From Sipunculus nudus (lineage: Eukaryota; Annelida; Sipuncula; Golfingiida; Sipunculidae): 64,000 nucleotides of DNA. Made by a program: the position numbers and the translations under genes. The stretch covers positions 11,752,382 through 11,816,381 of the forward strand of contig CM049317.1 in the NCBI GenBank assembly GCA_026874595.1, read 5' to 3'. The notes below the pieces were generated by a model that was not told the origin of the DNA, did not search any database, and was given only the letters and a program-made list of their open reading frames with translations. Within the stretch, counting starts at the first letter, position 1; every line of letters begins with the position of its first letter. Positions 8,117-38,200 of the stretch are shown in pieces.

Positions 8117-8333
8117 CCCCCTCCTTTTAAAGAAAATACACAGTATTTTCTCGATACATCGTATCGTTCTATCTCACAGGGTCCAGCTAAACATATTTAC
8201 ATATAGCAATACATAGCAATACATAAGGGTCATGTAACAAGATGTCATTAGTACATGCCCACGGTCCATGACACAGGGCAAAATCCTGTACATGTTTAGA
8301 CTTAACTGGCTAAACATTATAGCTCATTACATC

Positions 8334-10316: not shown

Positions 10317-11088
10317 TCTCATGTGGCGCTTCTCGCTACGCAAAAAGCACAGCGCTGAGGTACCGATCCCAATCTCGCGGTCTTTCCTCGCACATCCGTT
10401 TCAACATTAACTTTAACGTGCCATTGAATCTCTCCACCATTCCTTTGCACGGGAGGATCTGTTTCACCGTCTACACCGTCAGGATCATGTATGGAATCAG
10501 GTGCGCCCTGGGCTACCGCTGCCAGAATATGCTGGGGCTCGTTCCTAGCATGGTACCGTTTCAGCATATTCACGTGGAAGGTTTTAACCTTATCGCCAAT
10601 CATAATCCGATAGTCTAAGTCCCCAACCCTGTTTACAATAGTATAGGGGCCTTTCCACTGTACCATTAATTTGTTCCGCTCCGTCGGGAGTAAAAACAAA
10701 ACTTCGTCTCCGGCCTCAAACCTGCGCGTGATTTTACCTCTATAATATAACAGTTTGTGTCTGTTCGCTGATTTGTTCAACGCCTCTCTAGCTAACGCGC
10801 ATGTGTCGCTTAGTTTGTCTTGTAGGTCCAGGACGTATTGGTACGTGGTTTTAGTCTCGACGCTAGTATCTCGCATGGTCCACAGATCCCTAAGAATCCG
10901 CATCGGTCCTCTAACGATCCTACCATAGAGCAACTCAAAGGGTGAGAACCCTGTGCTCTCATGTGGCGCTTCTCGCTACGCAAAAAGCACGGCGCTGAGG
11001 TACCGATCCCAATCTCGCGGTCTTTCCTCGCACATCCGTTTCAACATTAACTTTAACGTACCATTGAATCTCTCCACCATTCCTTTGC
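9809..11088. repeat. 640-bp tandem duplication inside Gypsy-1 pol
   Basis: Two adjacent near-identical units run at about 9809-10448 and 10449-11088 with a period of 640 bases. Each contains the last part of the integrase core, the GPY/F-like segment and the start of the linker. Differences are a handful of substitutions. Because 640 is not a multiple of three, the duplication itself breaks the pol frame. Both copies share the same in-frame TAG after the AVLFA motif, so that nonsense mutation either predates the duplication or was spread by gene conversion. Confidence 0.9.
10319..10936 (-). pseudogene. Gypsy-1 duplicated integrase tail (second copy)
   Basis: This minus-strand frame repeats the first two thirds of the 9424-10293 product (LLYGRIVRGPMRI, GPYTIVNRVG, FHVNMLKRYH). 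It then runs out of frame into the duplicated integrase end, so its last ~35 residues are nonsense. It arises from the 640-bp tandem duplication and would not occur in an intact element. Confidence 0.85.
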
Positions 11089-11700
11089 AAATAGGATAGT
11101 AAGGAGTAGTGGTGAGCTGTTTTACAGACAAAACACGGCTAACTTCACGCATGAAGTCTGACGTAAATTGTGTTCCCATGTCGGTAAGCACCTCTGACGG
11201 CACTCCTATCCACGCATAAATATCAACTAGCGCATCAGCCAAAGAGACAGTATCTATGTTCTTTAAAGCAAAAGCCTCCGGATATCTAGTGGCATAATCC
11301 ATAACGGTCAGAATATACCTGTGACCTCTCTCCGACGCTGGATGGATCGGCCCAACCAGATCCATCGAAATTCTACGCCAGGGCTCATCAATAAATGGCA
11401 TCTGGCCTAACGTAGCTCCAGGCACCTTGCCTTTCGGTATGGTTTTCTGGCAAATGGGACAGGACTTGCAAAACTCAGCAATGTCATTATACATCCCTTT
11501 CCAGAAAAAGTGAGTTCTCACGCGGTCGTGCGTTTTGTCTATGCCCTGATGGCCCGCCATAACCGCTTCGTGGCCCATCCTCATGACGTCGTACCGTAAC
11601 GTCTGGGGTACCACCACTCGAGATCCATCTTAATCTCCCCGTTTATCACTCACAACCAGAACTAAATATCCGTCCTCAATTCTAAATGGACTATCATTTC
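10976..11700 (-). pseudogene. Gypsy-1 integrase core
   Basis: The minus-strand frame encodes an integrase with an HHCC zinc-binding domain (H in MGHEAVMAGH, CKSCPICQ) and a DD(35)E core (D in SMDLVGP, D in LTDMGTQF, E in GMVERFNG). The frame closes at TAG about 10976 after AVLFA, where a tyrosine codon would be expected. Upstream, an in-frame TAA near 11628 separates it from the conserved FRIEDGYLVLV segment, and a frameshift near 11700-11740 separates it from gag-protease. Start and stop are therefore set by mutations, not by gene design. Confidence 0.85.
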
Positions 11701-12940
11701 TAGCCTCTCTTGCTAGCCTCCAATACGGCGCTAAAGACTGATCCTCCTCCTGCGCCTTCAAAAAATTCGGCCGGACTCACATCGGCAACTTGGCTTGCAA
11801 CATTCAAGCTACGCGTCGGTATCTGTTTCTCACGTGCAGCGCGCCGTGTCTCCACCGCGGACGACACCTCCTTTTGTGACTCTACAACGTCACACACTAT
11901 GCCTGAGGACCGCTCAGACTTCCACGTAGGGTCGGGATCATACGGATCACGCGCTCCCGCTACGTTACCTAGCGCTAAATAACATACAGCATCCCCGACC
12001 ACCATTGCCTCGATAGTACCGACAAAGTACGCACAGTCCACAATAATCCTAGCCGTAGGAAATTGTCTTACAGACCCGTCGAACAACCTACACTCGACCT
12101 GGTGTCCGGTGAACTGATTCGGCCCGACTTACGACTCACGTATTCCTGCCGAGGAACATCCCGAATCCCGCAGCGCCCTCGCTGACTTACCATTCACCAG
12201 CCCTTCACACACAGGTAACGAGTTTCCGCCTTCTGTCTGGGCAGCAAATCCAAACGACTGACTCGGACTCTCTACTTCCGGTTTCACCGCACCGACTGTC
12301 TCCGTTTCCGCCTCGACTACTGCCATTGACATAGTGTCAGGCTTCTGTTTTGGGTTATACGGGGGGCTAAAATTAGTCCTATACCTCTGCTGATCGCCAG
12401 CAGCACGCCCTACTTGAGGGGAAGACCTAGGCCTCGAACGGGCACTAGTCTTACATTCCTGCGCCTTATGTCCCAGTTCATTACATAAGTAACATCTGAT
12501 GCCTCCTGATGGCTTAAATGTCTGACCGCCCGTCCCTAGCGCCTTACCCCGCAGTAACGGACTCAGGTGTAACGCCCAATTCTCCCTATCATAGTCTTGA
12601 CATACAGTTAACCGTTCAAATCGCTCAAGAAACGCATCAAGCTGATCGTGAGCCTCATCAAAAGGTGGAAGCTGGATTTTCGGGAATACATCCGTACTTC
12701 TCTCTTCTTTAACCCCAGAGTCAGACTTTAACCTTAGAACCTCTAATTCGTGGGCTCTAGCCTCTCGCTCGCGCACTTATTCCCGCTGTTCACTCTCTAT
12801 TTCACGTTGCCTAGCTCTTTTCTCACGTTCCTCATCCGCACGTCGTCTAGTCTCAACATAATCTTGTAAAGCCTGGTCCTTAAGTCCCAAGGCCTGTCCG
12901 CATCTAACAAGTGACTCGAACGACTCAATGGTAACGCTCT
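11700..12940 (-). pseudogene. Gypsy-1 gag and protease
   Basis: One minus-strand frame, interrupted by TAA at 12777-12779 and near 12126, runs from a charged coiled-coil gag N-terminus (GLKDQALQDYVETRR, then E/R-rich) to a capsid fragment (FPKIQLPPFDE, LDAFLERFERL). A single CCHC zinc knuckle follows (CYLCNELGHKAQEC), then a retropepsin-like protease with active site LRDSGCSS and the later GNVAGARDPYDPDP motif. Compared with related elements, the second half of the capsid is missing: LLRGKAL jumps almost directly to the knuckle. Gag and protease probably formed one polyprotein. All parts here are inactive. Confidence 0.8.
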
Positions 12941-13645
12941 AACCTAGTAAGATTCAAGTATCTAGTAATATCCGCTCTTAAAAATCCGTAAATATGTACT
13001 GTTAAAGCCAACCTAACGAACCGGCGGTATCCGTACAATTGCACTACGGTAGCTCTACGCATCAAAATCTACTTATACGGACGGACGGACGGAAGGTCGG
13101 ACGAAGGGTCAGACGGATGGACGGATGGATAACAAGATATCAATAAACATCATGCATCTATGATTACCATGCTAATCGGGAGGGTCAAACTTACCTGCCA
13201 AGAGACCCTACCACGTGACCAATCACAAACCAGTGTAGAAAAAATTATACCAGGGCGTATCCAACAACATCAAAAATTTTCACTCTAATCTGGGTTTATA
13301 TTAAGTAATGATGTTCAGGTATCACTGTTCTAGCATTACTCACAAAACATGCATGTGTTCTAGCCAAATCTACAAGGTATATGCTATTCCTGAAACATTG
13401 TTGTGCATCAGGTAATATTCTCACTGAATAAATATTAACTCCTAACAGTGGGGTAATTCCATTGTGCAAGTATACGCTATAACATCAGTTGGTGTCATAT
13501 CCAATTATTAATTCAGATCAACTCTAGTTTGAGTATATGAATGTCTGGTTTCAGTACTGTTTTCTCAGTTCAAAATTTCTGAAACTTACTGTAATTAGCC
13601 AGTTTTTATTAAGGCTAATTATATCCTGGCAGGCTCGCCATTCAA
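12941..13645 (-). other. Gypsy-1 leader with GGAC-type minisatellite and possible splice donor
   Basis: This is untranslated leader between 5' LTR and gag. Next to the LTR (minus strand) comes a 5-base spacer and TGGCGAGCCTGCCAGG, a plausible primer binding site whose tRNA I cannot name. A degenerate tetranucleotide tract (ACGG/ATGG units) lies at 13075-13135. A strong donor match, GGCAG|GTAAGT, occurs at about 13190 on the minus strand, and an acceptor-like CTTACTAG lies near 12950. A leader intron is possible but unproven. Confidence 0.5.
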
Positions 13646-14793
13646 TGTCACCCCTGACTTAACGTGATAACTTTACAACGGATATATCCTTTAAAACAAT
13701 AGGATGGGTTTACGCTCGCCACTTGATTTCTCTAATCAAGAAATTAGATCCCGGTCATTACAGGTGACATTTCAATGTTCTTTTAAGGACGTGTATAAAA
13801 ATACCAGACAATCATACACCTAGATCAATAGAAACTATGAGCCATCAGGTTAAATTCACAAATATAATTCAAGACAATACATACAGAGACAAAGATGTGT
13901 GTGTGTGCGTGCGTTGATGTGTCAATACGACCGTCCTTCACATTAAAAATACAGGATATTTACTGAGTCCAGGTTTGTATAAAAACAATAAAGTCCAGTT
14001 CCTTCAGAGATCTCTGGTTACTGTTTTGGGTAGAATCTAGCGTATGGTTAGTACCATATAGTCTTTCTGAGTTTAGAGATCTTCAACTGATCTTGCTTGA
14101 CAGCGACCCGGGTAGGTTTACGTTCACAAGAATGGTAATAGCTCTCGTTGTTTACATATGAGCTTAGTGTCCTTGACCTTACTCATGTAGCAATTGTTTC
14201 ACGGCTTACAGCGATTATGTATCTAGGTCAAGCTGAACTTGGCCGGCAGGTGACGCGTGCGCACTTACTTTACCGCCAATACGAAGCTCTGTCGGCAGCA
14301 CGGCTGTGTTCTCGTGGGCTGGGCCCTTGCCTCATGTAGAAGCTTGCTTCTATGCCGTTCCTGGCGGGTTTAAGCGTTTCAATGTTCTTTCTGCAGTGCG
14401 TGCGTGCTGCCTCTTCAAGCTTCAAGACCCAACTCCCGCAGCGTCCCGCGTCTCTCCCTGAACTCTGACGTCACAATCGCCTGTGCACTGTGTACGGCGA
14501 TCCGGTTCTCTGATTGGCTTATGGCTCAAGTGTCCCATATAAGGATATTTGTGATCTAGTATGACTGCTAGCGTCACCATGGCGACCCATATACCAGACG
14601 TAATACACGCAATGCGTGACACAGATAAATCAGCTGATAGCCGATGGGATTTCATACAAGAATACACAATATATATACAATCAAGACATGTCAACGCTTT
14701 AGGATGCAACTCACGTCAAAATCAAAAGAGAACAGACTTCGTTAAACTATGATACAAAACACCGTACATATTGTCACCGATTTTCTGGTGACA
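13646..14793 (-). repeat. Gypsy-1 5' LTR
   Basis: This is the partner of 7017-8116, about 1.15 kb. Its ends TGTCACC and GGTGACA form a perfect 7-base inverted repeat. It has an extra ~40-base segment near 13688-13730 and a conserved CRE octamer at 14466-14473. Its outer end abuts (TA)n at 14793-14806. Divergence from the other LTR (many scattered substitutions and indels) suggests an old insertion. Confidence 0.88.
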
Positions 14794-17556: not shown

Positions 17557-18255
17557 TCACGCAGTTCCCATACACCTATTCAAAGGACTAAACCCTAGGC
17601 TTTCTTGTACAGCTTCTCTGGCTGCAAATATCAAAAAGGGTAAACCCTCATCCCATTGGTTTTCAGTATCAAGACAATAAGCTCTAATCATGTTTTTGAG
17701 GGTTTGATGAAATCGCTCTAGAGCCCCTTGACTCTCAGGATGGTATGCACTGGATATGTAATGTTTTATACCTAATTCTGCCATGACCTGAGCAAATATA
17801 TTTGACATGAAATTTGAACCCTGGTCAGTTTGTATGGTTTTAGGTATTCCAAAAGTGGTAAAAAATTTAATAAGAGCTTCAACAATTTACTTTCCTGATA
17901 TTGTTCTGAGAGGAATGGCCTGTGGAAATCTGGTTGCTACACATATGATAATTAATATATATTCATTACCATGTTTAGTTTTCCGTGGTGGTCCAACACA
18001 ATCTAATATTACTGGCTCGAACGCATCATGTGTAGCTGGTATGGGTAAGAGTTGGGCAGGACTAACTTGGTGGGCTGGTTTACCAATCACTTGACACACG
18101 TGACATATTTTGCAATATTTAGCCACGTCGTGCGCAAGTTTTAATATTCCTGGGCGATATTCAGGGGGAACCACAATATGATAAATTGTTTCCCATGTTT
18201 CATTAGCCGGAATGGCGGGAGGTCTGTATTTCCTAACCAACACATCGTTATGCAA
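17557..18255 (-). pseudogene. Gypsy-2 integrase
   Basis: The first frame (18255-17887) has the N-terminal zinc-binding region and the first catalytic Asp (VILDCVGPP). The second (17808-17557) has the HPESQGALERFHQ segment with the catalytic Glu. The zinc-binding domain looks shortened: KLAHDVAKYCKICHVCQ lacks the ~30 residues that usually separate the His pair from the Cys pair. A stop near 17887 lies between the two pieces. Related integrases continue directly into the GPY/F segment, as here. Confidence 0.8.
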
Positions 18256-18649
18256 TGTGAAACAAGTAGGAACTTTATCCGCTTCCTCTTTAGTTAACGC
18301 ATTTTCTCTTAAGGACGCAATATCAGGATCTTTCTTTTGCAGTTAAGTCAAATTATCAGTTTTCATACTAGGTCCTACATTCTCTACTCTCCTCTCTTTC
18401 TCTTTCGATTTTTGACCATTTTGATTTTTTCACGCCGTTATTACTCATTGTATTATCCAGGAGACTGGTATTATGGGGTTGATTACCCTGTACTACATTT
18501 GTAGTAGAATCCTTTGGACTCAGTGTGCCACATGGGTCACATGTATTATATACGGGCGATTTTACATTTAATCGCGTATTGGGCTTTAAGCCTCTGATGT
18601 CATCATTTGAATTCGCCATTAAAGTTTGCGATAGGTCAAGTATAGAACT

Positions 18650-21749: not shown

Positions 21750-22790
21750 AGCACTCAGCCCTTAGGCTGATGGGCTATTGTCGTCACCCAAGCTGTCCGT
21801 CCGTCCGTCCGTCCGGCGTCCGTTAACTTTTACTTTGTGAGCGGAATATCTTGAAAAGGATTCACCGTCAGAATTTAATTTCCTCGGTAAAGATGTATAT
21901 CGACAAAATCTCGGTCAAGTTCGAAGATGGGTGACCTTGACCTATTTTTCTACATTTTAGAGCTGATTATAGAAAAGCACTTAGATGGTTATTACTCAGG
22001 AACCATCTAGTGGATTTTCACAAAACTTACTATGATTATTGGGACTAATAGTTTGTACCTGCTACACAAGTTTGGTGGTGCCACCTAGAATTTCTGATTT
22101 TTAATAAATTTTTATCCGATTTTTCAACTTTGGGCTTGTGAGCGGCATATCTCTAAAAGGATTCGCCATAGGAATTTTATTTTTTCGGTGCAGATGTATA
22201 TTGACAAAATTTCGGTCAAGTTCGAGATGGGTGACCTTGATCTATTTTTCTGCGTTTTAGAGCTGATTATACTAAAACATTTCGAAAGTTTTTTTTCTCA
22301 AGAACCATTGGGTGGATTTTCACAATACTTACTATGATTATAGGGACTGATGGTCGTAACTGCTGCACAAGTTCGGGGGCGCCATCTGTAATTTCTGATT
22401 TTTTATGAATTTTTCTTGGATTTTTCAACTTTAGCCTTGTGAGCGGGATATCTCTAAAAGGATTCACAAAAGGAATTTTATTTCTTTGGTGAAGATGTAT
22501 ATCGACAAAATTTCGGTCAAGTTCGAAGATTGTTGACCTTGGCCTACTTTTCAGGGTCACAGAGCTTGAAATAGAATAAAACTTAGAAGCAGGAAGCAAT
22601 TGATGGATTGTTATGAATCATGGTACATACCTCTCCATTTTAAATTTATAACTGAGACATGTGCAGATATACATCCATGTGGGAACAGATATTTAGTACT
22701 TGTTACTGTTACCACCTCTAAACACTGTTCTTTTGGCTGAGGGCTTTTGTCAGCTTCTGCTGATATTCTAGTTTTTATTAGGCATAATCG
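21750..22790 (+). repeat. dispersed repeat with (CCGT)n and three ~300-bp tandem units
   Basis: The repeat opens with AGCACTCAGCCCTTAGGCTG, a (CCGT)n tract at 21797-21817, and then three tandem units starting GTGAGCGG at 21837, 22137 and 22439 (period ~300 and 302, the third cut short near 22575). Each unit contains TCGGTCAAGTTCGA and GGTGACCTTG-type phrases. It closes near 22740-22785 with GGCTGAGGGCTTTTGTCAGC, partly inverted relative to the opening. Such TCCGTCCGTCC-plus-tandem modules are common in bivalve genomes. It looks like a non-autonomous mobile element with internal satellite. Confidence 0.7.
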
Positions 22791-25361: not shown

Positions 25362-25505
25362 ATCTGTAATGTAAAATTTTGAAAAAAAAGGTTTGCCAAA
25401 ATAAGAGCACAAGTGTGGACACGATTACACTGTTTGGTTATTTCAGTGATACAAAATACATATTCAAGTAACAGAGTAGAGGCGTAATCTTGGAATGTGT
25501 AATAT

Positions 25506-25728
25506 TGTAGTAGATTTGCATTACTCCAAGAATTTGGCATTGATGGCTGTGTTTTGGTGGTCCCGGATGATCAACTGACGCATGCGCAGAAGACCCGACG
25601 TTCAATGGAAGACAAGAAACCCTATTATTTGAGAAGACTTTATCCGCAGATATCTCAGGTTCATTCTGCCATCGGACCTTGACGGTAAGCCAGATTGTTG
25701 CTTACCTATGTAAGTGCAAACACTTACA
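25506..25728 (+). repeat. Gypsy-3 5' LTR
   Basis: 223 bases running from TGTAGTAGATTTGC to CACTTACA. Relative to the 3' LTR there are about three substitutions, a 3-base indel (AGA) and a 1-base indel. A splice-donor match, GACG|GTAAGC, lies at about 25681-25690 within the LTR and could supply the donor for a spliced accessory mRNA. An inverted repeat, GCTTAC...GTAAGTGC, lies near the 3' end. Confidence 0.93.
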
Positions 25729-26652
25729 TCTGGCGACGAATAAACCGGTTGCTAGCGTAATATTTGCTAGTCCTCGGTGGAGAAATTTCACTGGGAATTT
25801 CATGATTCCTGGTGAGCTCAGATCTCACTTGATCACCTCGGATTTTCTCTTCCGAGATTAATACCTTACCCTTGCCCCTTCGTCATATGGTAATATTTGT
25901 ATTGACGAATCTTACCACGTTTATGAATCGAGTTGTCATTTATTCCTCGCTTCGGGATTACTGAAGTTGTGGTGGCGCGCTCTGTCATTATCGCCCAGGC
26001 GCGACTGACGTTGCATGGACGTATTTCCTGATCACTGAGATCAGCTGTGTTTTCAACCTATTATCGCCCAGCCCCGTTGACGCCTATTTCTGGCTTATTA
26101 CTGGTGTCCATCAATCAGTCATAAGCAGTGTTGACAGTCTTTCCGTCTTTTTAACGGATTGTTGACATTGTTATTTGTTTTTCACAGCTGACAATCAGTT
26201 TATTCCAAATTTTTGTTGGCAAACATTTGTCAGTGTCCTAGCTGGCTATGTTTATATTCTGACAATTTGTTTACAGTCAGATAAGTTATCAGAAATTTTA
26301 TCGGATTTATTTTTTCACAAATTTTGATTAAACTTGCCTGATTTCATGCCAGTATATTTATTATTGACTCCTTAATCATCAAAACAGAGCTTGCCACTAC
26401 CTTGATCTTGATATAATATATAATAGTTTATATTATATATTTGCTATATTATTCAAAATTCTACCGCCGCTTTGCATATTGCTTTGCCTTTTATATTAGA
26501 CCTATTAGCTGTTATTAAGAATTTTCTCTCATTCTGCTCATATTATTCTGCTGCTTGCATTAATATTTGGTTTCATCCCCCCCCAAAAGAAAAAAAAAAA
26601 ATTTCAAATAAAATAAAAATACAAATAAACTTGCCGTGATCAGGTACCAAGA
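25729..26652 (+). other. Gypsy-3 PBS and untranslated leader
   Basis: A primer-binding-site candidate begins at 25731 with TGGCGACGAATAAACC. I cannot name the tRNA with confidence. About 900 bases of leader follow, ending in an A-rich tract (26580-26635) and the context AAGAATGGC around the gag start. Short upstream ATGs occur. No coding feature is seen. Confidence 0.7.
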
Positions 26653-28986
26653 ATGGCAAAAATGCCACTCAACCTGCGCACCGTGACTGTTAAGGAATTA
26701 TCCTCTGCATTCCCTTCGCTGATCAATATGGATAATGTTCAACAATTCATATCACTTAGACAAGCCACTCCTGGCTTTGACATTTCCCAGCTAGCACAGG
26801 CTACTGGCACACAGGACAGCGCTTGGCAGGAGCTGCTAAATGATGACAAGGTAACATTACCTGAGTACTTGGACCCACATGTGACATCTGTGGATGGTGA
26901 ACAGTTCAGCGAAAATCAAGCCAGATCCCGCCATCGCCAAGGGGAAATTACTGAAAACACTACCCCCCTCTCCAGACATATATCACACAAGCGGGATGCC
27001 CCTTTGCCCCATTCTGATCCTGCCATACAACAGGTGATTACTGGAAATAGCTCAGCCTTTAGACGGGGAATTTATCATAAACCTGACTGTGTGGAACCAA
27101 GTCCAGCAGCTACCTTGCCATATGGCTATTCTGATGATGAAGGTCAAGGTCATCACAGTGCGTTCCGACGGCCTATGAAGGACCATGCTCACAACCCAGG
27201 CCCCCTAAAATCTCAAACATTCACCGGTAAATATGATCGAGAAGGCTCATCCATGGATTCGCACTGGGAGAGGGACAGGCCACACACAAAGGGAATTAAA
27301 CTTGCCCCGGGTCAACAGCACAAAACATCCCAGACCCAGCGGTCCAGATACACAAGCAGTCAACTTAGACCAGAGGGCCAGTCTAGTCAGGGACCCCCCA
27401 GTGACTTGTCTCATTCGCTGCATCCGCGCGAATTTGACCACAGACAACGATATGATCACGAACACACTGAACCCCCTACCAGTTGTGCAAGGCCATCTGA
27501 CCCTGACTACTATAGTTGTGATCCAGGATCTTACCCTGACCGCCAAACCAGTGGCAATGTGAAAAATAAAAGAGTACATAGATCTCATGGCAGCTCAGTT
27601 GAGCGGAATGATTCGGCTGGTCAGACGCGTGGATACAGGCGGCATGGCCATCCATCCCGTGATCAACAGGACCCAGAACAGCCTGGTAAAAGGGACCGAG
27701 GCACCAACCAACATGGCCGCAGAGGTAGGCCAAAGGATTTTGGCCCGGAATACCGCCATATCCGTACCCCAAAACATCGCGATTCTAGTAGTAGTTCTGG
27801 CGGGAGCAATGTCGGCTGCCACTCCTATAGGAGTCGAAAGCTATCCAGTAGCCCACAAGAATCAGACTCAAGTGGTTGTAGGAGGAGACATAGGGGGCGC
27901 CACCATACATCGAGGTCGAGCAGCAGCTCATCCAGTTCTAGTGCATCGGACTACAGACCCCGTAATGCGAAAAAACACTCACGCAGGCGTCGACAAAGTC
28001 CGCTTTCCCCCAAGCTAGCTATGTTCAGTGGTGACGGAACCTGGAAGGCCTTTCTTTTCCAATTTGAGAGATATGCCTCTCGCTATGGATGGTCATCCAT
28101 CAAGAAGGCAGATAGGTTGGTGGACTGCCTTTCTGGCAAAGCCTTGGAGTTTGTAAGAAAGCTTAGTATTGAGCACGACTACAAACTCCTAAAACGGAAA
28201 CTGGGAAAGAGATTTGGGATCGAGGAAGACCCCATTACTGTAAGGAGGGCCCTGCAATTTGTTAAACAGAGGGAAGGAGAAACTCTCGAGGAGTTCAGCC
28301 AAAGGGTCCTGTTTCTGGTCATGGATGGTCTACCAGGTGCCAAAGAAAGTACTATCGAGCAGATAGCGGTTGAACATTTTTTGAGGGGCTGTTCTGATAA
28401 AAACGCAGCAGCCTCTGCAATGGACAAAAACCCACATAGTATAAACACTGCATTGAAGCACGTGAGCAGCTACATCAACAATAGTCGTGTGATATTTGGT
28501 AAACCCACTCACGCAGCAAGGCACGTACATTTTGTCCAGAATCCTTCTGACATATCTGACAATGAACTGGAGGTGAAAGCAGCTCAATTCAGGCCCTTCA
28601 AACCACGAAATTTCAACCAGCAATCACGACAAGGGACCTCAAGGAGCAAAGAGTCAGAGGTGACACCATCCGCCTCACCACAAAAATTTCCTGACGCTGC
28701 TTTAGCAGAGAAGAGATACCAGCAACAACAACAAAATAACTCTGAGATTTTACAGAAAGTTTCTGTAATGGAAGAGAAACTGGAGATCCTGTTTCGAGAT
28801 AGGCAGACAGGACCCCCCAAACGAGCCCAAACGCCACCTCCAGGCACAAATGCAGCCACTGCTGTCTGCTACAACTGTCAGCAAAAAGGACATTTTGCAC
28901 GAGATTGCCCAGAAAAAAAGACCATAAGTCCTCCCCAGCCAGGGAAAATACAGGGAAACAACAAGAGCGATTCTGATTTAAACTAG
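26653..28986 (+). CDS. gag: Gypsy-3 Gag polyprotein with SR-rich N-terminal extension
   Basis: 777 residues, fully open. Residues 1-100 form a moderately hydrophobic N-terminus. Residues ~100-455 are very hydrophilic, rich in Arg, Ser, His, Asp and Pro, and end in a serine run and RRRR-type basic patches, resembling splicing-factor SR domains. From Met457 (MFSGDGTWKAFLFQFERY) a retrotransposon capsid fold follows with the usual REGETLEEFSQRV segment. One CCHC zinc knuckle (CYNCQQKGHFARDC, ~739-752) sits near the C-terminus. Gag packages element RNA into particles. The family's Gags are commonly 300-500 residues, so the extension is unusual. The last codons contain a -1 slippery site. Intactness suggests recent activity or trans-use. 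Confidence 0.92.
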   Translation: MAKMPLNLRTVTVKELSSAFPSLINMDNVQQFISLRQATPGFDISQLAQATGTQDSAWQELLNDDKVTLPEYLDPHVTSVDGEQFSENQARSRHRQGEITENTTPLSRHISHKRDAPLPHSDPAIQQVITGNSSAFRRGIYHKPDCVEPSPAATLPYGYSDDEGQGHHSAFRRPMKDHAHNPGPLKSQTFTGKYDREGSSMDSHWERDRPHTKGIKLAPGQQHKTSQTQRSRYTSSQLRPEGQSSQGPPSDLSHSLHPREFDHRQRYDHEHTEPPTSCARPSDPDYYSCDPGSYPDRQTSGNVKNKRVHRSHGSSVERNDSAGQTRGYRRHGHPSRDQQDPEQPGKRDRGTNQHGRRGRPKDFGPEYRHIRTPKHRDSSSSSGGSNVGCHSYRSRKLSSSPQESDSSGCRRRHRGRHHTSRSSSSSSSSSASDYRPRNAKKHSRRRRQSPLSPKLAMFSGDGTWKAFLFQFERYASRYGWSSIKKADRLVDCLSGKALEFVRKLSIEHDYKLLKRKLGKRFGIEEDPITVRRALQFVKQREGETLEEFSQRVLFLVMDGLPGAKESTIEQIAVEHFLRGCSDKNAAASAMDKNPHSINTALKHVSSYINNSRVIFGKPTHAARHVHFVQNPSDISDNELEVKAAQFRPFKPRNFNQQSRQGTSRSKESEVTPSASPQKFPDAALAEKRYQQQQQNNSEILQKVSVMEEKLEILFRDRQTGPPKRAQTPPPGTNAATAVCYNCQQKGHFARDCPEKKTISPPQPGKIQGNNKSDSDLN

Positions 28987-29017
28987 GACTAGTCGTGTCA
29001 GGTGGCCGTGGCACGAC
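28977..29017 (+). promoter_or_regulatory. -1 ribosomal frameshift signal between gag and pol
   Basis: The heptamer T TTA AAC (28977-28983) is in register with gag codons (GAT TTA AAC TAG) and directly precedes the gag stop. After an 8-base spacer, GTCGTGTCA (28992-29000) and TGGCACGAC (29009-29017) pair into a 9-bp stem with one G-U and an 8-base loop. The -1 frame from 28977 stays open into the protease frame. UUUAAAC is an established efficient slippery sequence in viruses. Loop bases GGTG could pair with CACC in the downstream ACACCCC to make a pseudoknot. Confidence 0.75.
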
Positions 29018-29660
29018 AAATTCATTAGGTCACACCCCATTAGCACATAAGTTCATTGTTAGCTCGGAGCCCAAGGTAGCCACTACAACATCAATTGGGT
29101 CTCACGGAACTGCAGAGGAGACACCTGACAATTTTGCGGGAAGTTATACCACAGTAGCGCAATCAGTCGTTGACTCACACTTGGGAAGCTTACCAAAGGA
29201 TGCCAATGTTTATGCAAACAAGTGCAAGGGCTTAAGTCTTACAGTTCCGGTCACCATCAACAATCTGGATACAGTTGCTACAGTGGATAGCGCAGCACAA
29301 GTCACTATTGTCAAAATAGATTTGCTCCGGGATCTTGTTGACTCCAGTTCAAAAATAGTTACCCTATAGGGGATAGGAAAAAAAGACTCGACTATCCCAG
29401 CATTCCGGGTTAACAATGTGGAAATAGGCCTAGGTAAAACAAAGTACTTGTGGGATGTCTACGCTGCTGACATCAGCGATTCAGTACTATTGGGATTGGA
29501 CTTCCTCGTCGGTCAACAATGCAAAATAGACCTGAATGCTTTGGTAGGTCCTGTCGTGTTTATGAAGTTGCAACCTGCGCCAAAGTCCGTATTCCGCCCG
29601 CATCGCTTACTCCCGTTTCAGTCAAAATCATTGATCCAGGTGGAGATCAGGAGTACGTGA
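28977..29660 (+). pseudogene. Gypsy-3 protease (nonsense-interrupted)
   Basis: Entered by the -1 shift, this frame encodes a retropepsin-type protease. The active-site region reads TVATVDSAAQVTIV, with D-S-A where D-S-G or D-T-G is usual. A TAG at 29367-29369 interrupts it, and the same frame resumes through SVLLGLDFLVGQQCKIDLN, the typical ALGLDFL-type second half. It loses frame at about 29580, where coding continues in the frame of 29519-30199. The stop and the altered G suggest that protease is inactive in this copy. Confidence 0.75.
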
Positions 29661-30204
29661 TTGAACTACAGGACAGTCTCAAAGGGTTGTTACCGGCCAA
29701 TGCGGTGATCAACAATAATGGGCTAATAGATGTACTGAATGACACCAATCACAGCGTGAATCTGAAGTCACAAGCCCGTATAGGTACAGCAGTCGAAGTT
29801 GACCAAGTGATTGGGACCATTACCAAACAAGCAGTTTCGGATGAGAACTTAGCAATAAGGGCCATGGCAGCTGGCGTAATCACAAATTCCAAGAATGATG
29901 ACACCCTGAGTAGCTCGTATTTGAGGGAATCGCAATCCCTGTGTGAAATGGAACAACTGCTGCCCGATCATTTGCATGCACTCTTTGGAGACTGTAAAGG
30001 CAAACATTCGGAGAAACATCTTAAGACCGTATGCGAATTACTTTTAGAGTATTCAGATATCTTCGCTAGCCATGTTCTTGACCTAGGCCGCCTCCAAGGT
30101 GTTAAACATACCATCGATACTGGCTCTGCACCTCCTGTCAAGCAAAGAATGCGCCGTACACCTCTTGGATTTGAGAACGAAGAGAGAGAGAGCATTTAGA
30201 CAAA
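29580..30204 (+). pseudogene. Gypsy-3 protease-RT linker
   Basis: After a frameshift near 29580 the coding continues as a linker (VRIPPASLTPVSVKI, LPANAVINNNG, then LCELLLEYSDIFASHVLDLG). It ends in the RT entry motif RMRRTPLGFENEE. The frame closes at TAG 30197-30199 because a (AG)n run at 30181-30190 has the wrong length. The next frame picks up with EHLDKML, matching the expected continuation. This second break therefore looks like dinucleotide slippage. Confidence 0.75.
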
Positions 30205-33120
30205 ATGCTAACAGCAGGGGTCATTCAACCATCATCCTCCCAATGGGCATCTGCTCCTGTGCTTGTAAGAAAAAAAGATGGAACAGTCAGATGGTGCATC
30301 GACTACAGGCAGCTGAATGAAAAGACTGTACAAGATCAGTACCCACTGCCAATCATTGAAGATTGTCTTGACATGCTGGCAGGTACTCAGTTTTTCAGTT
30401 GCTTAGATCTAGCCTCGGGCTATTATCAGATAGAGCTGGAAGAGAGTTCGAAGAAGAAAACCGCGTTTATCACCCGCTACGGTCTGTTCGAGCATGCCAG
30501 GATGGGCTTCGGCCTCTGTAACGCACACGTACAAGGCTATGCCAAGTTAACAGCTGATCTCTACTCCTTGGTTAAGCCGAAGGCAGCCTTTGTTTGGAGT
30601 CAATCGCATGACGAGACTTTTCAGCTCCTGAAAGAAACTCTCGTGTCTGCTCCTCGCTTGGCCTTTCCCCTCCCATCTGGACAGTTCATCCTCGACTGTG
30701 ATGCATCGGAAAAGGCAATTGGCGCAGAACTGGTACAGGTACAAGATGGCATCGAAAGAGTGATCTCATTTGCTAGTTTTGTTTTGCTGCCGTCTCAAAG
30801 GAAGTACTGCACAACCCGGAAAGAGCTCTTGGCTGTGGTCCGCTTCTGTCGCCACTACCGACATTATCTATTAGGAAGACCTTTCTTGATTCGCAGCGAC
30901 CATAACAGCCTTGCTTGGTTAGCACGGTTTCGCTTTGTGGAAGGTCAGCTAGCTAAATGGCTGGAAGAGATGGGACAATATGACTTCAAGATTCTGCATC
31001 GTCCCGGCGTGAAACATTCCAATGCAGATGCCCTGTCACGCATCCCAGACCATTTACAGAGCTGTAACTGCTATGAGGCGGGTGTAAATCTAGCTGATTT
31101 GCCATGTGGAGGTTGCAAGTACTGCACCCGAGCCAGCCAACAGTGGGAGAGGTTCGGGTTGGATGTAGACGACGTAGTGCCCATTGCCATGAGATTGACC
31201 CAGGTGGCCGACACATCTCACGCCGCTCAATCGGCTAAGCTGGCGAGTGGTGGAGATGTTCTTGACACTGGAGCAACAGGTCTGCCAGTACCAAAACCGG
31301 AGAGCTTGGCTCAGTCGGCAAAGCTGGAGGGCCATGATCCTGATGGGGACGGTACTGGTTTGGACCAAAGAAATTTCAAAGTTTTCAAAGTGCCAACTAC
31401 TGAAACTTCAGACCATGACATAGATCCGGATTCAACGGAAGAGCCAGACTCCGAGTCTGACAAGAAAGATGATAGGCAGTTTGACCTGCACATTAATTGG
31501 ACAAGTTCTTACTCTGGGAGCGAAATTGCGGAGTGCCAAAATCAGGATCCAGACATTCAGTCCATCTTTCGGTGGTTAAACGAGGAAGAACCAACACAGG
31601 CAGAATGGCAGCTCTCGAGTCCTGGTACCAGAGCACAATGGACTTCTCGGAAGCAACTATGTGTAAAAGACAAGGTTCTGTACTACAATTGGGAAGACCC
31701 TCATTTGCCTCGCTTACTGCTTGTATTGCCAGGATCATTGAAAAACGAAATCTTAGAACTGGCACACAGTACAAAGACGGCAGGCCACCTTGGCAGAGAT
31801 AAAACAGTAGATCGGCTAAAACAGAGCTTTTATTGGCATCAGATGACCAGAGATGCCGACCTATTTGTCAAGTCTTGTACAACCTGTAACAAGAACAAAA
31901 AGAAGTCTGGGAAAATGAAAGCTCGGCTAAAGTCGTTTCATGCAGGATTCCCCATGGAGAGGGTTCACCTAGACATATTGGGACCCTTTTCACCAAGTGA
32001 GGCTCACAACAAGTACATCCTGATGATTACAGACCAGTTCACAAAATGGGTGGAATGTGTCCCCATTCCAGAACAGAGTGCTGAAACAGTCGCGGAGAAG
32101 TTCTTTGTCAACTTTGTCTCCACCTTCGGGTGTCCAATTACCATACACACGGACCAAGGAGCAAACTTTGAATCCAGTCTGTTCAAAGAATTCTGTAAAT
32201 TGATGGATATAGCTAAGTCTCGTACCACGCCATACCATCCGGCCTCTAACGGTCAAGTGGAGCGCCAAAACAGAACGCTAATGCAAATGAATAGATGCTA
32301 TATCCAGGATAATGTGAAGGACTGGGATAAAGATCTACCCATCCTCAGCATGGCCCTCAGATCAAAGGTCAACCGTGCCACAGGACACTCCGCTAATATG
32401 GCGATGCTTGGCAGAGAAGTGTTTCAGCCGATAGATGTACTGTTGGGCACAATCAAAGAGAAGGTACAGCCCACCACTGTCAGTCAGTGGGTCTCAGATC
32501 TGGTGAAACGGCTAGGAGATATTCACCAGCATGTAAGAACTAAACTTAAGAGTCAACAAGCCTCCCAGAGCCGACAGTATGATCAGAATGTCAATGAAAC
32601 TACCTATCAACAAGGAGATCTGGTATACCAACTGGATAAGTCTGTTAGGAAGGGGGTCAGCCCAAAGCTACGCCCAATATGGAAAGGGTCATACCTGATC
32701 ATCAAGGAAAGACACCCGATCTATCTTGTCCGGTCAAGGAAAAGATATAAGTATATCCATCATGATAACCTGAAACCTTGCACAGATGGATGCATCCCCT
32801 TATGGCTTAGGAGAGCCAGGAACAAGTATTTCAAGGGGGAGGATGCTCTTGACCAGGATCTGGGGAGTCAAACAAACGGCCAAGCTGGGGTTGACTCTCC
32901 TGTCCTGGATTGGGACGCGTTCTCATCCTTAGAGAACCAAGATGGTGTTGACACAACAGATAAAAAACCAGAATCTAGCAACACCAAACCTGTAGCACCA
33001 GATGGACCTGAAGGATTAAACCCCAACCAGTATGGTGATAAGTTCCAGACCAAGACAAGGAGGGGAAGGACAATAAAACGTCCAGGGCGGTTCCAAGACT
33101 ACTCGCTGGATTCGCCATAA
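30205..33120 (+). CDS. pol: Gypsy-3 Pol: deleted RT, RNase H, integrase
   Basis: 971 residues open. RT begins LTAGVIQPSSSQWASAPVL and has the first catalytic Asp (CLDLASGYYQI). It then jumps at residue ~107 from FGLCNA straight to the HVQGYAKLTADLY segment, so the YxDD palm and much of the thumb (about 100 residues) are missing in frame. RNase H follows (D in LDCDASEKA, E in TTRKELLAV, D in RSDHNSLAWL). The integrase is complete: HHCC with GHLGRD and CTTCNK (~520-560) and a DD(35)E core (HLDILG, HTDQGANF, GQVERQNR), ending in a GPY/F-like WKGSYLI module. Order is canonical for gypsy. RT activity should be absent, integrase possibly intact. Confidence 0.9.
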   Translation: MLTAGVIQPSSSQWASAPVLVRKKDGTVRWCIDYRQLNEKTVQDQYPLPIIEDCLDMLAGTQFFSCLDLASGYYQIELEESSKKKTAFITRYGLFEHARMGFGLCNAHVQGYAKLTADLYSLVKPKAAFVWSQSHDETFQLLKETLVSAPRLAFPLPSGQFILDCDASEKAIGAELVQVQDGIERVISFASFVLLPSQRKYCTTRKELLAVVRFCRHYRHYLLGRPFLIRSDHNSLAWLARFRFVEGQLAKWLEEMGQYDFKILHRPGVKHSNADALSRIPDHLQSCNCYEAGVNLADLPCGGCKYCTRASQQWERFGLDVDDVVPIAMRLTQVADTSHAAQSAKLASGGDVLDTGATGLPVPKPESLAQSAKLEGHDPDGDGTGLDQRNFKVFKVPTTETSDHDIDPDSTEEPDSESDKKDDRQFDLHINWTSSYSGSEIAECQNQDPDIQSIFRWLNEEEPTQAEWQLSSPGTRAQWTSRKQLCVKDKVLYYNWEDPHLPRLLLVLPGSLKNEILELAHSTKTAGHLGRDKTVDRLKQSFYWHQMTRDADLFVKSCTTCNKNKKKSGKMKARLKSFHAGFPMERVHLDILGPFSPSEAHNKYILMITDQFTKWVECVPIPEQSAETVAEKFFVNFVSTFGCPITIHTDQGANFESSLFKEFCKLMDIAKSRTTPYHPASNGQVERQNRTLMQMNRCYIQDNVKDWDKDLPILSMALRSKVNRATGHSANMAMLGREVFQPIDVLLGTIKEKVQPTTVSQWVSDLVKRLGDIHQHVRTKLKSQQASQSRQYDQNVNETTYQQGDLVYQLDKSVRKGVSPKLRPIWKGSYLIIKERHPIYLVRSRKRYKYIHHDNLKPCTDGCIPLWLRRARNKYFKGEDALDQDLGSQTNGQAGVDSPVLDWDAFSSLENQDGVDTTDKKPESSNTKPVAPDGPEGLNPNQYGDKFQTKTRRGRTIKRPGRFQDYSLDSP

Positions 33121-33312
33121 ATTAGTTACAAGTCCCTACTCATCTAGTTAAGTAGGGTAAGTTTAAGAAACAAAGGAAAAGCATAAACGTTATTTTTTTA
33201 TTTTTTGCAGGATTGCACGTTCGCAACAAAACAAAAAAAAAAAAACAGAAAAGAAAATATATGTATATACATAAAAGAATATAAAGAAAAAAGAACAAGG
33301 ATTATAGTTAAA
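33121..33312 (+). promoter_or_regulatory. intron-like segment and leader before the accessory ORF
   Basis: Between the pol stop and the accessory start lies AGTAGG|GTAAGT (donor at 33157) and a T-rich tract ending TTTTTTGCAG (acceptor at 33210), a 54-base GT...AG unit. The same acceptor could pair with the LTR donor near 25683 to make a subgenomic mRNA. An A-rich stretch with one short upstream ATG (33263) follows. The first good-context ATG (AAAATGG) is at 33313. Confidence 0.5.
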
Positions 33313-33885
33313 ATGGAGGTTTATGATGAATCCCAGTTCTGCCCAGACTATGAGGAGGACATGATGGCAGAACTTCCCCCTGTAACCCTCGCTTCAGCTA
33401 AGAAAATGAAAAAGAAGCGCAGACAAGTTGTTGTTTGTCCTATCTGTCAAGCTCAGGACTCACACATGAGGCGACATGTTGTCAAGACACATCTGCCCTG
33501 GTGGTTCCAGCTAGGGACATCATGCTGGGCCTGCCATGTCCAGGAGGGCCATGCATCTTTCCTAAGGAAACATGATGATCATGATCTGGGCCAGCAAAGT
33601 AATCAGTGGGAAATGGGCTGCAAGGAGCTTATCACAACACTCCAACAGTTGCACAGTAAACCTTCCTTGCAGGCCCTTCTGGAGTTTGCGGTGTGTGAGG
33701 GCATTCACACAGCAAAGGGGTTTTCGCCTGAAGAGCAAGTCAGTTTGAAGACCATGTCTGCCACCCATGGATGGGAGAGCCCCAGTGCACCCATTTTAGC
33801 AAACCCGCCTAACTGCGTAGCAGGTTTACTTCATTGGGAGACTCTAGCATTGCTAACCGAAAGTTATTGTGGAAAATTTCCCTGA
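33313..33885 (+). CDS. Gypsy-3 accessory ORF, zinc-finger part
   Basis: 190 residues from ATG 33313. The frame is open from 33205 but has no earlier well-placed ATG apart from 33205 itself. An acidic start (MEVYDESQFCPDYEED) and a basic patch (KKMKKKRR) are followed by two C2H2-like fingers: CPICQAQDSHMRRHVVKTH and CWACHVQEGHASFLRKHDDH. The rest is helical-looking with no known domain. The frame closes with CCC TGA at 33880-33885, exactly where the TatD frame takes over in +1. The likely intended product is a finger-TatD fusion of about 450 residues. The fingers could bind nucleic acid, perhaps element RNA or cDNA. Not recognised as a standard gypsy protein. Confidence 0.75.
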   Translation: MEVYDESQFCPDYEEDMMAELPPVTLASAKKMKKKRRQVVVCPICQAQDSHMRRHVVKTHLPWWFQLGTSCWACHVQEGHASFLRKHDDHDLGQQSNQWEMGCKELITTLQQLHSKPSLQALLEFAVCEGIHTAKGFSPEEQVSLKTMSATHGWESPSAPILANPPNCVAGLLHWETLALLTESYCGKFP

Positions 33886-34687
33886 GTTTGAGCCGTTTTC
33901 TGCACCAATATTAATTGACACCCATGCACACATAGACATGTTACTATGTCGTTCCCATGTTGAAAGCCTGCCTTCATTTGAATCGCGCGCCAGCTCCGGC
34001 CTTAACATCTCCGGGATTGTGGCTAACTTCGTTTACCCGGAACATTGGCCAGATCACCTTAACATCAAGAAAGATATACGTGTTAAATGTTCCTTCGGGA
34101 TACATCCTCGGCTCCTTAAGGATGTTTCCCATACAGAAGGCTACATCGCAAGGTTGACCCAAATGCTAAGATTCCCGTACTGTATTGCCATTGGTGAAGT
34201 TGGCCTCGACTGGTACCAGTCCTCAGTTGCAGACCGCTTTGTTCAACACAAGTTCCTAGAGAGGCCGTTTGAGGTAATGAAGAACTTTCCCAGTACGGTT
34301 CTGATACTGCACCGCCGGGATAAAGGTGATGGGTCCGCCGCCAAACAAGTACTGTCGCTACTCCAGGACAAACAGCTACAAAGCCACAATATCCATCGAC
34401 ATTGTTTTACTGGTGATGTGATTGAAGCCACTGCCTGGTTAGCCACCCTGCCAAACTGTTATTTTGGGATCACCACGGTTCTATTCAAGGCAGAACAACT
34501 TAGGTCGGCTGTGCAAACCATTCCGCTGGAGAGACTCCTCATCGAATCAGATTGTCCTTACTTGTCACCATCACCATGGGACATCCTTCCCATCGCTGCG
34601 GAGTTAAGCAAGCTGAAGCAGGTCCCACTGGCCTTCCTTGTGCAGCAGCTGAACAGCAATGCTGCTCGGCTGTATGGCTCATTCTAA
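33869..34687 (+). CDS. Gypsy-3 accessory ORF, TatD-family metal-dependent nuclease
   Basis: About 270 residues of TatD-like TIM-barrel hydrolase. Metal-ligand motifs appear in order: ILIDTHAHID (HxH, ~17-21), IAIGEVGLDW (Glu, ~109), LILHRRD (His, ~148), RHCFTGD (His, ~177) and LIESDCPYL (Asp, ~226). FGIHPRL and the C-terminal NAARLYG helix also match the family. TatD proteins are Mg-dependent DNases/3'-exonucleases, and length fits (usually 250-300). There is no ATG at the start and an in-frame TAA lies at 33854-33856. Translation must therefore arrive by +1 shift from the finger ORF at 33882, or the junction is a 1-base indel. All ligands are kept although RT is broken. A nuclease ORF inside LTRs is exceptional. 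Confidence 0.88.
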   Translation: MENFPEFEPFSAPILIDTHAHIDMLLCRSHVESLPSFESRASSGLNISGIVANFVYPEHWPDHLNIKKDIRVKCSFGIHPRLLKDVSHTEGYIARLTQMLRFPYCIAIGEVGLDWYQSSVADRFVQHKFLERPFEVMKNFPSTVLILHRRDKGDGSAAKQVLSLLQDKQLQSHNIHRHCFTGDVIEATAWLATLPNCYFGITTVLFKAEQLRSAVQTIPLERLLIESDCPYLSPSPWDILPIAAELSKLKQVPLAFLVQQLNSNAARLYGSF

Positions 34688-35043
34688 CGGGGAGGGTGCT
34701 TGCATGCAACTAACAGCGACCTCGGTCCAGTCGGCCAAGCTGGAGGACCAAGGCTACTGTTTCCTTTACTTCTCCTGGATTATTGCTTATACATTACTAA
34801 CCAGGGGGGTTCTAAGCTTTATTGGTCAATATATGTAGAACTAAGAGTTTCTCAAATTTGCTGTTTCAACATGTTCATTATTTTTATTATATTCGTTGGT
34901 GTGTAGGATGTTCAGGAACAAGGCTTGTAGGTCGGTCCTATATTAATTGGATCTATAAGACTATTTGTATACCTTTGCTTTATTGTTGAAATGTATATCA
35001 GTCTTGTCCATCACGGGGGCTTGTGCTTCAAGCAGGGGAGGAA
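34688..35043 (+). other. Gypsy-3 3' untranslated region and polypurine tract
   Basis: 356 bases without an ORF of note. The region contains the third QSAKL-type motif (34728-34747) and ends in AAGCAGGGGAGGAA (about 35030-35043), a polypurine tract next to the 3' LTR that would prime plus-strand synthesis. Confidence 0.75.
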
Positions 35044-35264
35044 TGTAGTAGATTTGCATTACTCCAAGAATTGGGCATTGATGGCTGTGTTTTGGTGGTC
35101 CCGGATGATCAACTGACGCATGCGGAGAAGACCCGACGTTCAATGGAAGACAAGAAACCCTATTATTTGAGACTTTATCCGCAGATATCTCAGGTTCATT
35201 CTGCCATCGGACCTTGACGGTAAGCCAGATTGTTGCTTACCTATGTAAGTGCAAAACGCTTACA
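35044..35264 (+). repeat. Gypsy-3 3' LTR
   Basis: 221 bases that pair with 25506-25728. It begins TGTAGTAG and ends GCTTACA, and the flank ATAT repeats the left flank ATAT. The few differences between LTRs argue for a fairly recent insertion. Confidence 0.93.
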
Positions 35265-38200
35265 ATATCTTGTTCGTACCTTTTTTCTCGGTGGATTTGA
35301 CAACCAGAGCTAATTTAGATGAAAATTTTCTTATCTGCAACTGTGAAAAGTGATGGTTAACTCATCATGAGCCCAAAATTAACAATGTATATTGGAAAAC
35401 AGAAAATGTAATATCTCTAGTACCAGTTATGCTAGAAAGACAAAAAATGTCTTTCTGACTAACTTTGGTATGACATATTTACTAAAGTAGTTATTGTAGG
35501 GTTCCAGAATGATCCTAATCCTTACACTCAAAATGACCATCTACGCCATCTTGAGAAAACCTTCAAAATGTAATTTTCCTGCAACCAAATATGTTGGAAA
35601 GATAAGGGAGGTGTCATTTTCGACACACGCTTTCATGACAAGCTCAGTAAAACAGTTATTGTAGAATTTTGGGATTATTCTCACCTATAAATTCAAATAT
35701 TAGAACTAGATGAATTAGGAGAATGAATTAAGGATCACTGTCGACAAACTGTTGGGTAAAATATCCATCTAAATTTTTATAGGTAAGCTTCGGGAACATT
35801 TATCCAAAAGGACCTGTGACGCCATTTTGTGAAACAGAAAAAAAATATATGTTATTACGACATGATGTAGAAATACAGAAGAGGTGGCATTGTCCTGCAA
35901 CTCTGTCGTGGCAAGTCAAATGGTTGTTTAAGAGATACAAGAGGTGTTTTAGCGTGTCATTCTAATATAATTAGACGAACAAATGTTATAACATTAGATG
36001 CTTATCCGTACAAACATAGGTCAGCATCAAACCTGAGACGTTTGCTTTCTCTCTGGAAAAATCAGAAAAGTCTTTATAAGGGAAATGTTATAGAAATATC
36101 ACCAAACCAGGAACATAATGGAATCAAATAAAACTCATTAGAAATATTACCCTATTGAATATCTCACAAAGATCGATTCCAGGCAAATATATAGATTTGG
36201 TTTCTAATACATTTTTGGGAACTATAAGATATTCCATTAACATTTCTTATTATATTATTGTGTATTGTATATTATCTATAAGCTTTTAAAATATCAAAGA
36301 AATCAGGTGGGCATTTTGCCAACATCCCCGAATTCAATATAGCATACGAAAAATACAATATCAAAGAACAACTTTCTTTTATCAACATCTGCTTAATGTG
36401 CCCAAGTTTTCCTATGGAACGAAACTCTACTTAAACTCCATTCTTTCATTTATAAACGGTAAGTGTCACGATAAAAGCGAGATGATTGAATTTCAGATTT
36501 TCGTTTACCACTGACACGATCGTTATATCGATTTTTCTCAGTTTCCAGAAAAAAATGTCCTTCCCGTACCTGAAAAAGATTCTCTAAACATCCGTGGCTG
36601 AGTCACGGGGATTTACATTTCAACAATTAGTGATTTTTTTTCTGCGCCCATTTCGGTCTTTCTTTCAACCCTTTATCCTTTATCCTTAGTTGCAGTATTA
36701 TTTTAACTAATTTTACCATTATTGACACAGAAGGTTTGCTCACTTGCTAATAATTGAAAATTTCCCTGAAGATTTGTGTGTCCTTGTGTGATTTGTCTGA
36801 CTGAATCTTTTTTTTTTTCACGCAGTGAGTGGTCGTTTCATAACTTGTAGTCTTTGGTCTGGGTGATTTTCGACATACTGAGAATATGTAAATATATTTA
36901 ACATGTAACGTATTTCTGCTTTTAATCTATCGATTGTGCGATAATCCCATCCTTTTCCAGGAACCTTCTTGACCATCCGTCTGCCTCATCAGGCCTCTTC
37001 CTTGAAAGTTCTAAGTGGTCGAATTTTCATGCGTACTAGAAACAATAATTTATATTTCCAAATTTTGGACTGAACTAATCCTCAATGCAAATTAAAAAAA
37101 ACGAGAACCTTGACACCAAGAAAGGTTAAGACTGAAGTTAATTTACATATGCCAACAGACGAATGGCCTGCATGACGAGAGACAAAAGATAATAACTTTA
37201 TACATTAAATCAGCCGAGCTCAAATATAAACACAAAACTGAAGAATGTCTTAAACCAGAGAAAACATCAATTTAAGGACATCTTCTCCACACAGGAAAAA
37301 AAAAAACCCTACTGATTATTTCGTATAACGCATTTTGCACTTCTGTGATAGAATATACTATTCTTCAAAATATTTTGATGCCTGCTTTTATAGGTTTATG
37401 CATAACTTCGTCGATTAACCATTCGTCGACCAGATTAAAATGTTGATCTGGACCTGAGATACATTAGCTGAAACTAGGCGGAGTGAAAGACACTAAATAA
37501 AAGCAGAACGGTTTTATGATTTTTACAGGGTACTATAATAACATTTGTTTCAAATTTTTGATATTTATTGAAACGAGCGTCTTATTGGTTATTGTAATTT
37601 ATGATATTTTTGCATTCAGATTATTTAACTGTGTCATGTTCCCAAGAAAGATCTTTTATTATTACCTGAATCAACCATCGCGTTGATATAATCTCCCTTC
37701 AGAGCGGTTTTGCTAAGTTTTGTATCTTGCATGCATTTTTTATCATTCAGAGTATTATGCTTTTGTCTTTTTCGGGGCTCATTTCACCAGTTCCACTACA
37801 AAAATTCACACAATATACCCAGTATATATAAAATATGAATATATAGAATCCGTTAGTATAATCTTTACTTCCTGGCCTTTTATTTGTTTACATTAACATC
37901 AGTGCTTTGTATTTTTCTTCTTAGGAAATTATCATACAGTTTAAGCTATATATATATATTAATATTAATATTATAATAAATATTAATCCTTAGTATTTAG
38001 TGCAGATCAACTGCGTTTTTTTAAATGTTATCCAGTCACATGTAAAATTCCACGATCATTTAATTTAATTTAATATTAATTTCTAATTATCTTTCTTTTT
38101 TGTATAATTATGAAACTTTGCAATTTCCCTGTCCTAATTCATGTCACTATATTTTGTATCTTATTATTGTTCCTTCCACTCTTTTCATTTTGAATTCTTT

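Follow-up and report, generated by a model that had tools for sequence, protein, structure and literature searches.

How does a nuclease gene come to lie between pol and the 3' long terminal repeat (LTR) of a retrotransposon, and what might it do there? The third open reading frame (ORF) of LTR elements normally encodes Env or an unknown protein. In the sipunculan annelid Sipunculus nudus, a gypsy-type LTR element at positions 25506-35264 (9,759 bases) of the stretch analysed here encloses a region coding for a TatD-family nuclease. This stretch, referred to below as the window, comprises 64,000 nucleotides of GenBank assembly GCA_026874595.1 (contig CM049317.1, positions 11,752,382 to 11,816,381, forward strand). 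The nuclease gene, termed ORF3, appears to encode a cellular Class II TatD enzyme that was captured by the element and bears an extension at its N-terminus; it stands where errantiviruses carry env. It is considered fairly probable that ORF3 is a cargo gene of the element and is expressed as such.

The TatD domain of ORF3

The PF01026 profile matches the domain over its full length (positions 1-253 of 253; E 9.3e-42; 143.6 bits against a cut-off of 27). This bears out the original prediction of a full-length TatD-type domain, and the motifs quoted for it (DTHAH, GEVGLDW, LHRRD, HCFTG and ESDCPY) are all present. The metal ligands form the complete set E, H, H, E, D (E114, H152, H182, E230 and D232). 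Class II TatDs are defined by an HxH motif in the first strand (PMC10085689); ORF3 carries this hallmark as H23 and H25 within DTHAH. The domain also has the TIM barrel of solved TatD DNases. It scores 115.7 bits against TIGR00010, the NCBIfam model for the TatD exonuclease subfamily, which is under the curated cut-off of 206; judged by this score, it is related to that subfamily yet lies outside it. No TATDN2 chain is present among the 16 matching PDB sequences. Metal-dependent nuclease activity is predicted.

Bacterial TatDs share 23-30% identity with the domain and keep the ligands. Prokaryotic contigs yielded 110 TatD relatives; among the best 80 of these 110, the listed titles are all bacterial and identity is 22-31%. 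The bacterial relatives are informative on the ligands and not on origin. TatD matches were found in 23 phage records, all below 60% identity, and those that are annotated bear the names of ordinary metal-dependent hydrolases or deoxyribonucleases. Searches of viral contigs found no relative of the TatD ORF, the integrase part or the finger ORF. In BFVD, one match reaches E <= 0.001, a Yasminevirus protein; no retroelement protein is found among the 50 matches listed.

Within the window, the TatD profile finds only ORF3 among 2,066 stop-to-stop pieces of at least 20 amino acids, besides one chance-level piece (E 0.4). The codon-position GC content of ORF3 is similar to that of the integrase part of pol; this is a weak hint that ORF3 did not enter the element recently.

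The element that carries ORF3

The TatD region lies inside the mobile unit, as the original prediction had it: it follows pol, precedes a polypurine tract (PPT)-like sequence and is flanked by the LTRs, a primer-binding site (PBS)-like sequence and the ATAT flanks (Table 1). The LTRs, matching flanks, PBS and PPT are the terminal features of Ty3/gypsy elements. Both LTRs have the form TG...CA, starting with TGTAGTAG and ending in CTTACA. The PBS-like sequence TGGCGACGAATAAACC presumably fits the 3' end of tRNA-Ser(GCU). The two LTRs differ by 3 substitutions over about 218 positions and by two small indels, a divergence of about 1.4%; the insertion is therefore young.

These features bear on whether the TatD gene is instead a resident host gene, with an LTR element wrapped around it or placed next to it by chance through nesting or recombination. 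Beyond the host-like nature of the TatD domain, nothing was found that speaks for such an arrangement. The LTRs are 98-99% alike, their flanks match and ORF3 stands between pol and the PPT, which makes a resident gene extremely improbable.

The domain order of pol (RVT_1, RT_RNaseH, Integrase_H2C2 and rve in Pfam) is that of Ty3/gypsy elements. The reverse transcriptase (RT) is broken, as previously noted. Neither the pol ORF (30175-33120) nor any of the three forward frames over about 30175-31100 contains a YxDD-like box, and further interruptions of pol lie upstream; this copy lacks the intact RT with YxDD of an autonomous element. Ahead of RT, an aspartic protease is matched weakly (Asp_protease, E 0.13) in a broken frame. 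The element can be described as a gypsy-type LTR retrotransposon that inserted recently and is now defective.

The gag-pro junction is probably a -1 frameshift site. Its hairpin lies 8 bases past the heptamer, with a folding z of -1.96 on 60 nt and -0.57 on 100 nt. Three further in-phase slippery heptamers are found within gag, so the T TTA AAC heptamer by itself is not rare.

It had also been proposed that selection kept the nuclease ligands after RT was broken. This argument does not hold for the present copy; an LTR divergence of about 1.4% is too small for such a test, and ORF3 itself has a broken frame. At this divergence, the element should have acquired few changes in any part after it inserted, and the ligand codons would be expected to survive by chance in most copies. 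The TatD ligands have clearly been kept over the long run, to judge from the sequence comparisons; this long-term constraint may have acted in a host gene before capture.

Table 1. Features of the gypsy-type element and its ORF3 (positions within the window)
Feature	Position	Strand	Description
ATAT left flank	25502..25505	.	Putative target duplication; weak alone, as the region is AT-rich
5' LTR	25506..25728	+	Starts TGTAGTAG, ends CACTTACA
Two splice-donor-like sites in 5' LTR	25685..25715	+	Intron starts 25685 (ACG|GTAAGC) and 25710 (TAT|GTAAGT)
PBS-like sequence	25731..25746	+	TGGCGACGAATAAACC; follows left LTR
gag	26656..28986	+	No interruption; frame open between stops from 26629; contains a CCHC knuckle; matches PNMA weakly
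gag-pro junction	28977..29018	+	In-phase T TTA AAC (28977-28983) at gag stop; 9-bp hairpin from 28992
Protease and RT start	28977..30199	+	Interrupted by a stop and frame changes
pol (RT without YxDD part, RNase H, integrase)	30175..33120	+	Pfam matches
Splice-acceptor-like site	33191..33211	+	Last intron base 33210; TATTTTTTTATTTTTTGCAG|G
ORF3 first part (fingers)	33313..33885	+	190 aa; contains the basic stretch KKMKKKRR and, at residues 42 and 71, two finger-like motifs
ORF3 second part (putative Class II TatD nuclease domain)	33857..34687	+	276 aa stop to stop; next frame
PPT-like sequence	35034..35043	+	Purine-rich AGGGGAGGAA; adjoins 3' LTR
3' LTR	35044..35264	+	Repeat pair of 5' LTR
ATAT right flank	35265..35268	.	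Matches left flank

Reading frames and finger motifs of ORF3

The coordinates first assigned to the finger-TatD region, 33313-34687, are exact; it begins with the ATG at 33313 and its stop codon occupies 34685-34687. The 192 bases between the pol stop (33120) and this ATG contain no long ORF. A coding region with finger-like motifs and a TatD domain is present as described, but it is not one open frame: the fingers and the TatD domain are in different frames. The finger ORF stops at 33883-33885, while the TatD ORF is open from 33857 in the next frame, giving an overlap of 29 bases. In the TatD frame, Met first occurs at residue 28, past the HxH at residues 23-25, and no ATG precedes the HxH. 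With the frame broken and no Met ahead of the HxH, an intact TatD domain cannot be made from this copy by plain translation.

The finger stop follows immediately after CCC in the sequence TTT CCC TGA, where the TatD frame is already open. A programmed +1 frameshift at this point could join the two frames and yield a little of the long protein; the good -1 site at the gag-pro junction of the same element would be in keeping with it. No stimulating structure is found downstream (folding z 0.09 on 100 nt and +1.86 on 60 nt), and the frame junction was rejected as a programmed site on this ground. Frame breaks are also present in pol here, which makes simple mutation the cheaper reading. Programmed frameshifting is thus considered very improbable here.

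The two finger motifs claimed for the N-terminal part are indeed found, with the pattern C-x2-C-x(9,12)-H-x(2,4)-H. At least two motifs occur in a fraction of about 0.0008 of 20,000 residue-order shuffles and at least one in 0.072, using a looser finger pattern that was chosen after the motifs had been seen. The finger part matches no Pfam family at E <= 0.01; five are listed at E <= 10, all at 0.044 or weaker.

Predicted splice signals upstream of ORF3

The splice-acceptor-like site ending at 33210 is the top of 702 AG sites in the element, with a score of 16.5 against 12.5 for the next. Outside the element, none of the 2652 AG sites on the plus strand of the window reaches this score. Dinucleotide shuffling of the whole element produced an equal or better site in 2 of 300 trials, and shuffling of the gap 33121-33312 in 0 of 3000. 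There are 102 bases between the acceptor end and the finger ATG, which is in good context (AAAATGG). A strong acceptor at this distance from the ATG suggests a third gene in the env position, made from a spliced mRNA. Of all 486 GT sites in the element, the two donor-like sites in the 5' LTR rank 4 and 8, and a copy in the 3' LTR ranks 3. LTR donors combined with an acceptor ahead of the third ORF resemble the env-type splicing of errantiviruses (PMC4276936).

The best donor and the best acceptor of the element both lie between pol and ORF3, at 33157-33210; this possible mini-intron is perhaps left over from a host gene. The donor at 33157 was discarded as evidence by itself, since its score is reached in 229 of 300 shuffles and is unremarkable.

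Cargo gene or passenger

A number of points weigh against ORF3 as an expressed cargo gene. The evidence comes from a single copy of the element, and the frame break means that the whole ORF3 protein is not made as read. The finger motifs match no Pfam family at E <= 0.01, and the single-sequence structure model was unusable (predicted local distance difference test, pLDDT, 38.7). Splicing of the ORF3 mRNA is predicted from the sequence with approximate splice matrices. The top-scoring donor of the element, at 33157, lies 54 bases upstream of the acceptor end at 33210, and a mini-intron at 33157-33210 is possible in place of env-type splicing. The LTR donors may fall outside the RNA, depending on where in the LTR transcription starts. 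In addition, an upstream ORF of 7 codons (33261-33284) precedes the finger ATG.

A host TATDN2-like gene or mRNA may instead have been picked up by one copy through read-through and template switching, in which case ORF3 would be a passenger without a role. A chance transduction of this kind would agree with an ORF3 that is known from one copy only and broken in frame there; with the two other LTR-type elements of the window, which show no TatD match; and with the strong donor-acceptor pair 33157/33210, whose 54-base spacing could be the remnant of a host-gene intron. It is harder to reconcile with a tidy third ORF that has its own ATG in good context, is placed exactly between pol and the PPT and has a pol-like codon-position composition. 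Chance transduction is considered unlikely, and ORF3 as cargo remains the preferred reading.

Proposed role of the nuclease

If ORF3 is cargo, its source would be a cellular Class II TatD gene, TATDN2-like, which was taken up as a third gene between pol and the PPT. Its expression, now or formerly in intact copies, would depend on a subgenomic mRNA in which an LTR donor is joined to the acceptor ending at 33210. The protein would enter the nucleus by means of its basic stretch; there the fingers would grip nucleic acid and the metal site would trim single-stranded DNA or RNA at the 3' end, or strip RNA from RNA:DNA hybrids. The targets would most likely be the element's own reverse-transcription or integration intermediates. 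Reverse transcription and integration produce such substrates. The assignment of any particular one of these substrates is rather doubtful.

Of the roles considered, 3'-end trimming and RNA:DNA-hybrid processing are compatible with published TatD activities. TATDN2 is reported in a review to degrade R-loop RNA, and loss of TATDN2 results in more R-loops in medaka germ cells. TATDN1 and TATDN3 also cleave abasic sites (PMC10085689).

The nuclease could also be directed against the host, destroying small RNAs, sensor ligands or repair intermediates and allowing escape from silencing or DNA sensing. TatD enzymes cut single-stranded RNA and DNA (PMC4176340), and a paper on rotifer elements discusses a link between DEDD proteins and piRNA pathways (PMC5408684). 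The cellular TatDs of the cited papers are, in the parts drawn on, repair or R-loop enzymes; an anti-host function is considered quite improbable. Action on the element's own intermediates is the role retained here.

Comparison with known systems

Nuclease ORF3s are already known from LTR elements. In bdelloid rotifers, the LTR retrotransposons Juno and Vesta carry a DEDDy exonuclease ORF3 (Rodriguez et al. 2017, PMC5408684). More generally, ORF3 of rotifer LTR elements encodes a DEDDy exonuclease or an esterase, typically from spliced messages; within the genome, these ORFs did not clearly deviate from neutral evolution in the authors' analysis (PMC5408684). Juno and Vesta resemble the present element in having gag, pol and, in the env position, a third ORF for a 3'-exonuclease type of cellular origin, and some rotifer ORF3s carry a Cys-His zinc motif (PMC5408684). 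There are three differences. Firstly, the rotifer proteins have an RNase D-like DEDDy fold, whereas ORF3 here holds a TatD TIM barrel in its place. Secondly, several families are described in rotifers, compared with one copy here. Thirdly, those rotifer clades, apart from Mag, carry a dUTPase (PMC5408684), while Pfam lists none in the ORFs scanned here.

Errantiviruses such as Drosophila gypsy have a gag to pro-pol frameshift and a third ORF after pol that is made from a spliced subgenomic mRNA (PMC4276936); the present element likewise has a third ORF after pol, and a frameshift and splicing are predicted for it. The errantiviral ORF3 encodes an envelope glycoprotein. The one described here codes for a putative nuclease, and its splicing is read from the DNA only. 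In the interval from the pol stop to the 3' LTR, the only ORFs of at least 100 amino acids are the finger ORF, with no Pfam match at 0.01, and the TatD ORF; no env is found among them, with no prediction of transmembrane segments made.

Class II TatDs (TATDN2, TATDN3 and E. coli YcfH and YjjV) share the HxH motif, ligand set and fold with ORF3, and TATDN2 likewise has an N-terminal extension, often with a nuclear localisation signal (PMC10085689). In contrast to these proteins, ORF3 lies within an LTR element and its N-terminal part has two finger-like motifs; its kinship with TATDN2 is putative. A TATDN2 gene stands beside transposon-type genes in the giant squid Hox cluster (PMC6962438), and an oyster table places a YabD gene and a TATDN2 gene near each other (PMC10778899). 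Mobile TatD genes might be found in settings of this kind, which serve as a lead only; unlike the S. nudus case, no element is described in the parts of either source drawn on (PMC6962438, PMC10778899).

No description of a TatD within an LTR element was found in the literature searched, which excluded most subscription papers and Repbase reports. As far as this literature shows, TatD as an ORF3 is new.

Other repeats in the window

A second LTR element occupies 7055-14787 on the minus strand, with LTRs of about 1.06 kb (blocks 7055-8113 and 13726-14787) that are 88-99% alike. Read along the strand of this element, gag (12776-12129) comes first, integrase (11629-10976) second and RT-RNase H last (its start in 10335-9424, then 9380-8496). 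Integrase ahead of RT in a gypsy-type pol presumably corresponds to the arrangement of the Gmr1 group. A direct duplication inside this element (9808-10107 and 10448-10747; spacing 640, 98% alike) has doubled the C-terminal part of the integrase. Integrase-like remains of a third LTR-type element are found at 17587-18342 on the minus strand, with 32% identity to the integrase of the TatD element. The window also contains tandem repeats with a 301-base period (21825-22587) and several long (AT)n arrays.

Implications for LTR elements and TATDN2 genes

A broader proposal is put forward tentatively: in an animal gypsy lineage, env may have given way to a Class II TatD nuclease that has fingers, acts in the nucleus and is translated from a spliced mRNA. 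The lineage would use this enzyme in its own replication, for example in clearing RNA:DNA hybrids or trimming cDNA 3' ends. Many invertebrate TATDN2 annotations would then be parts of such elements. If ORF3 results from a single transduction, it is merely one example of gene capture. If TatD does occupy the ORF3 position as a gene of the element, unrelated nucleases would have been recruited by LTR elements, perhaps for the same task; such recruitment would suggest that the replication of LTR elements includes a 3'-end or RNA:DNA-hybrid step that is otherwise unmet, and some invertebrate TATDN2 annotations may be transposon genes.
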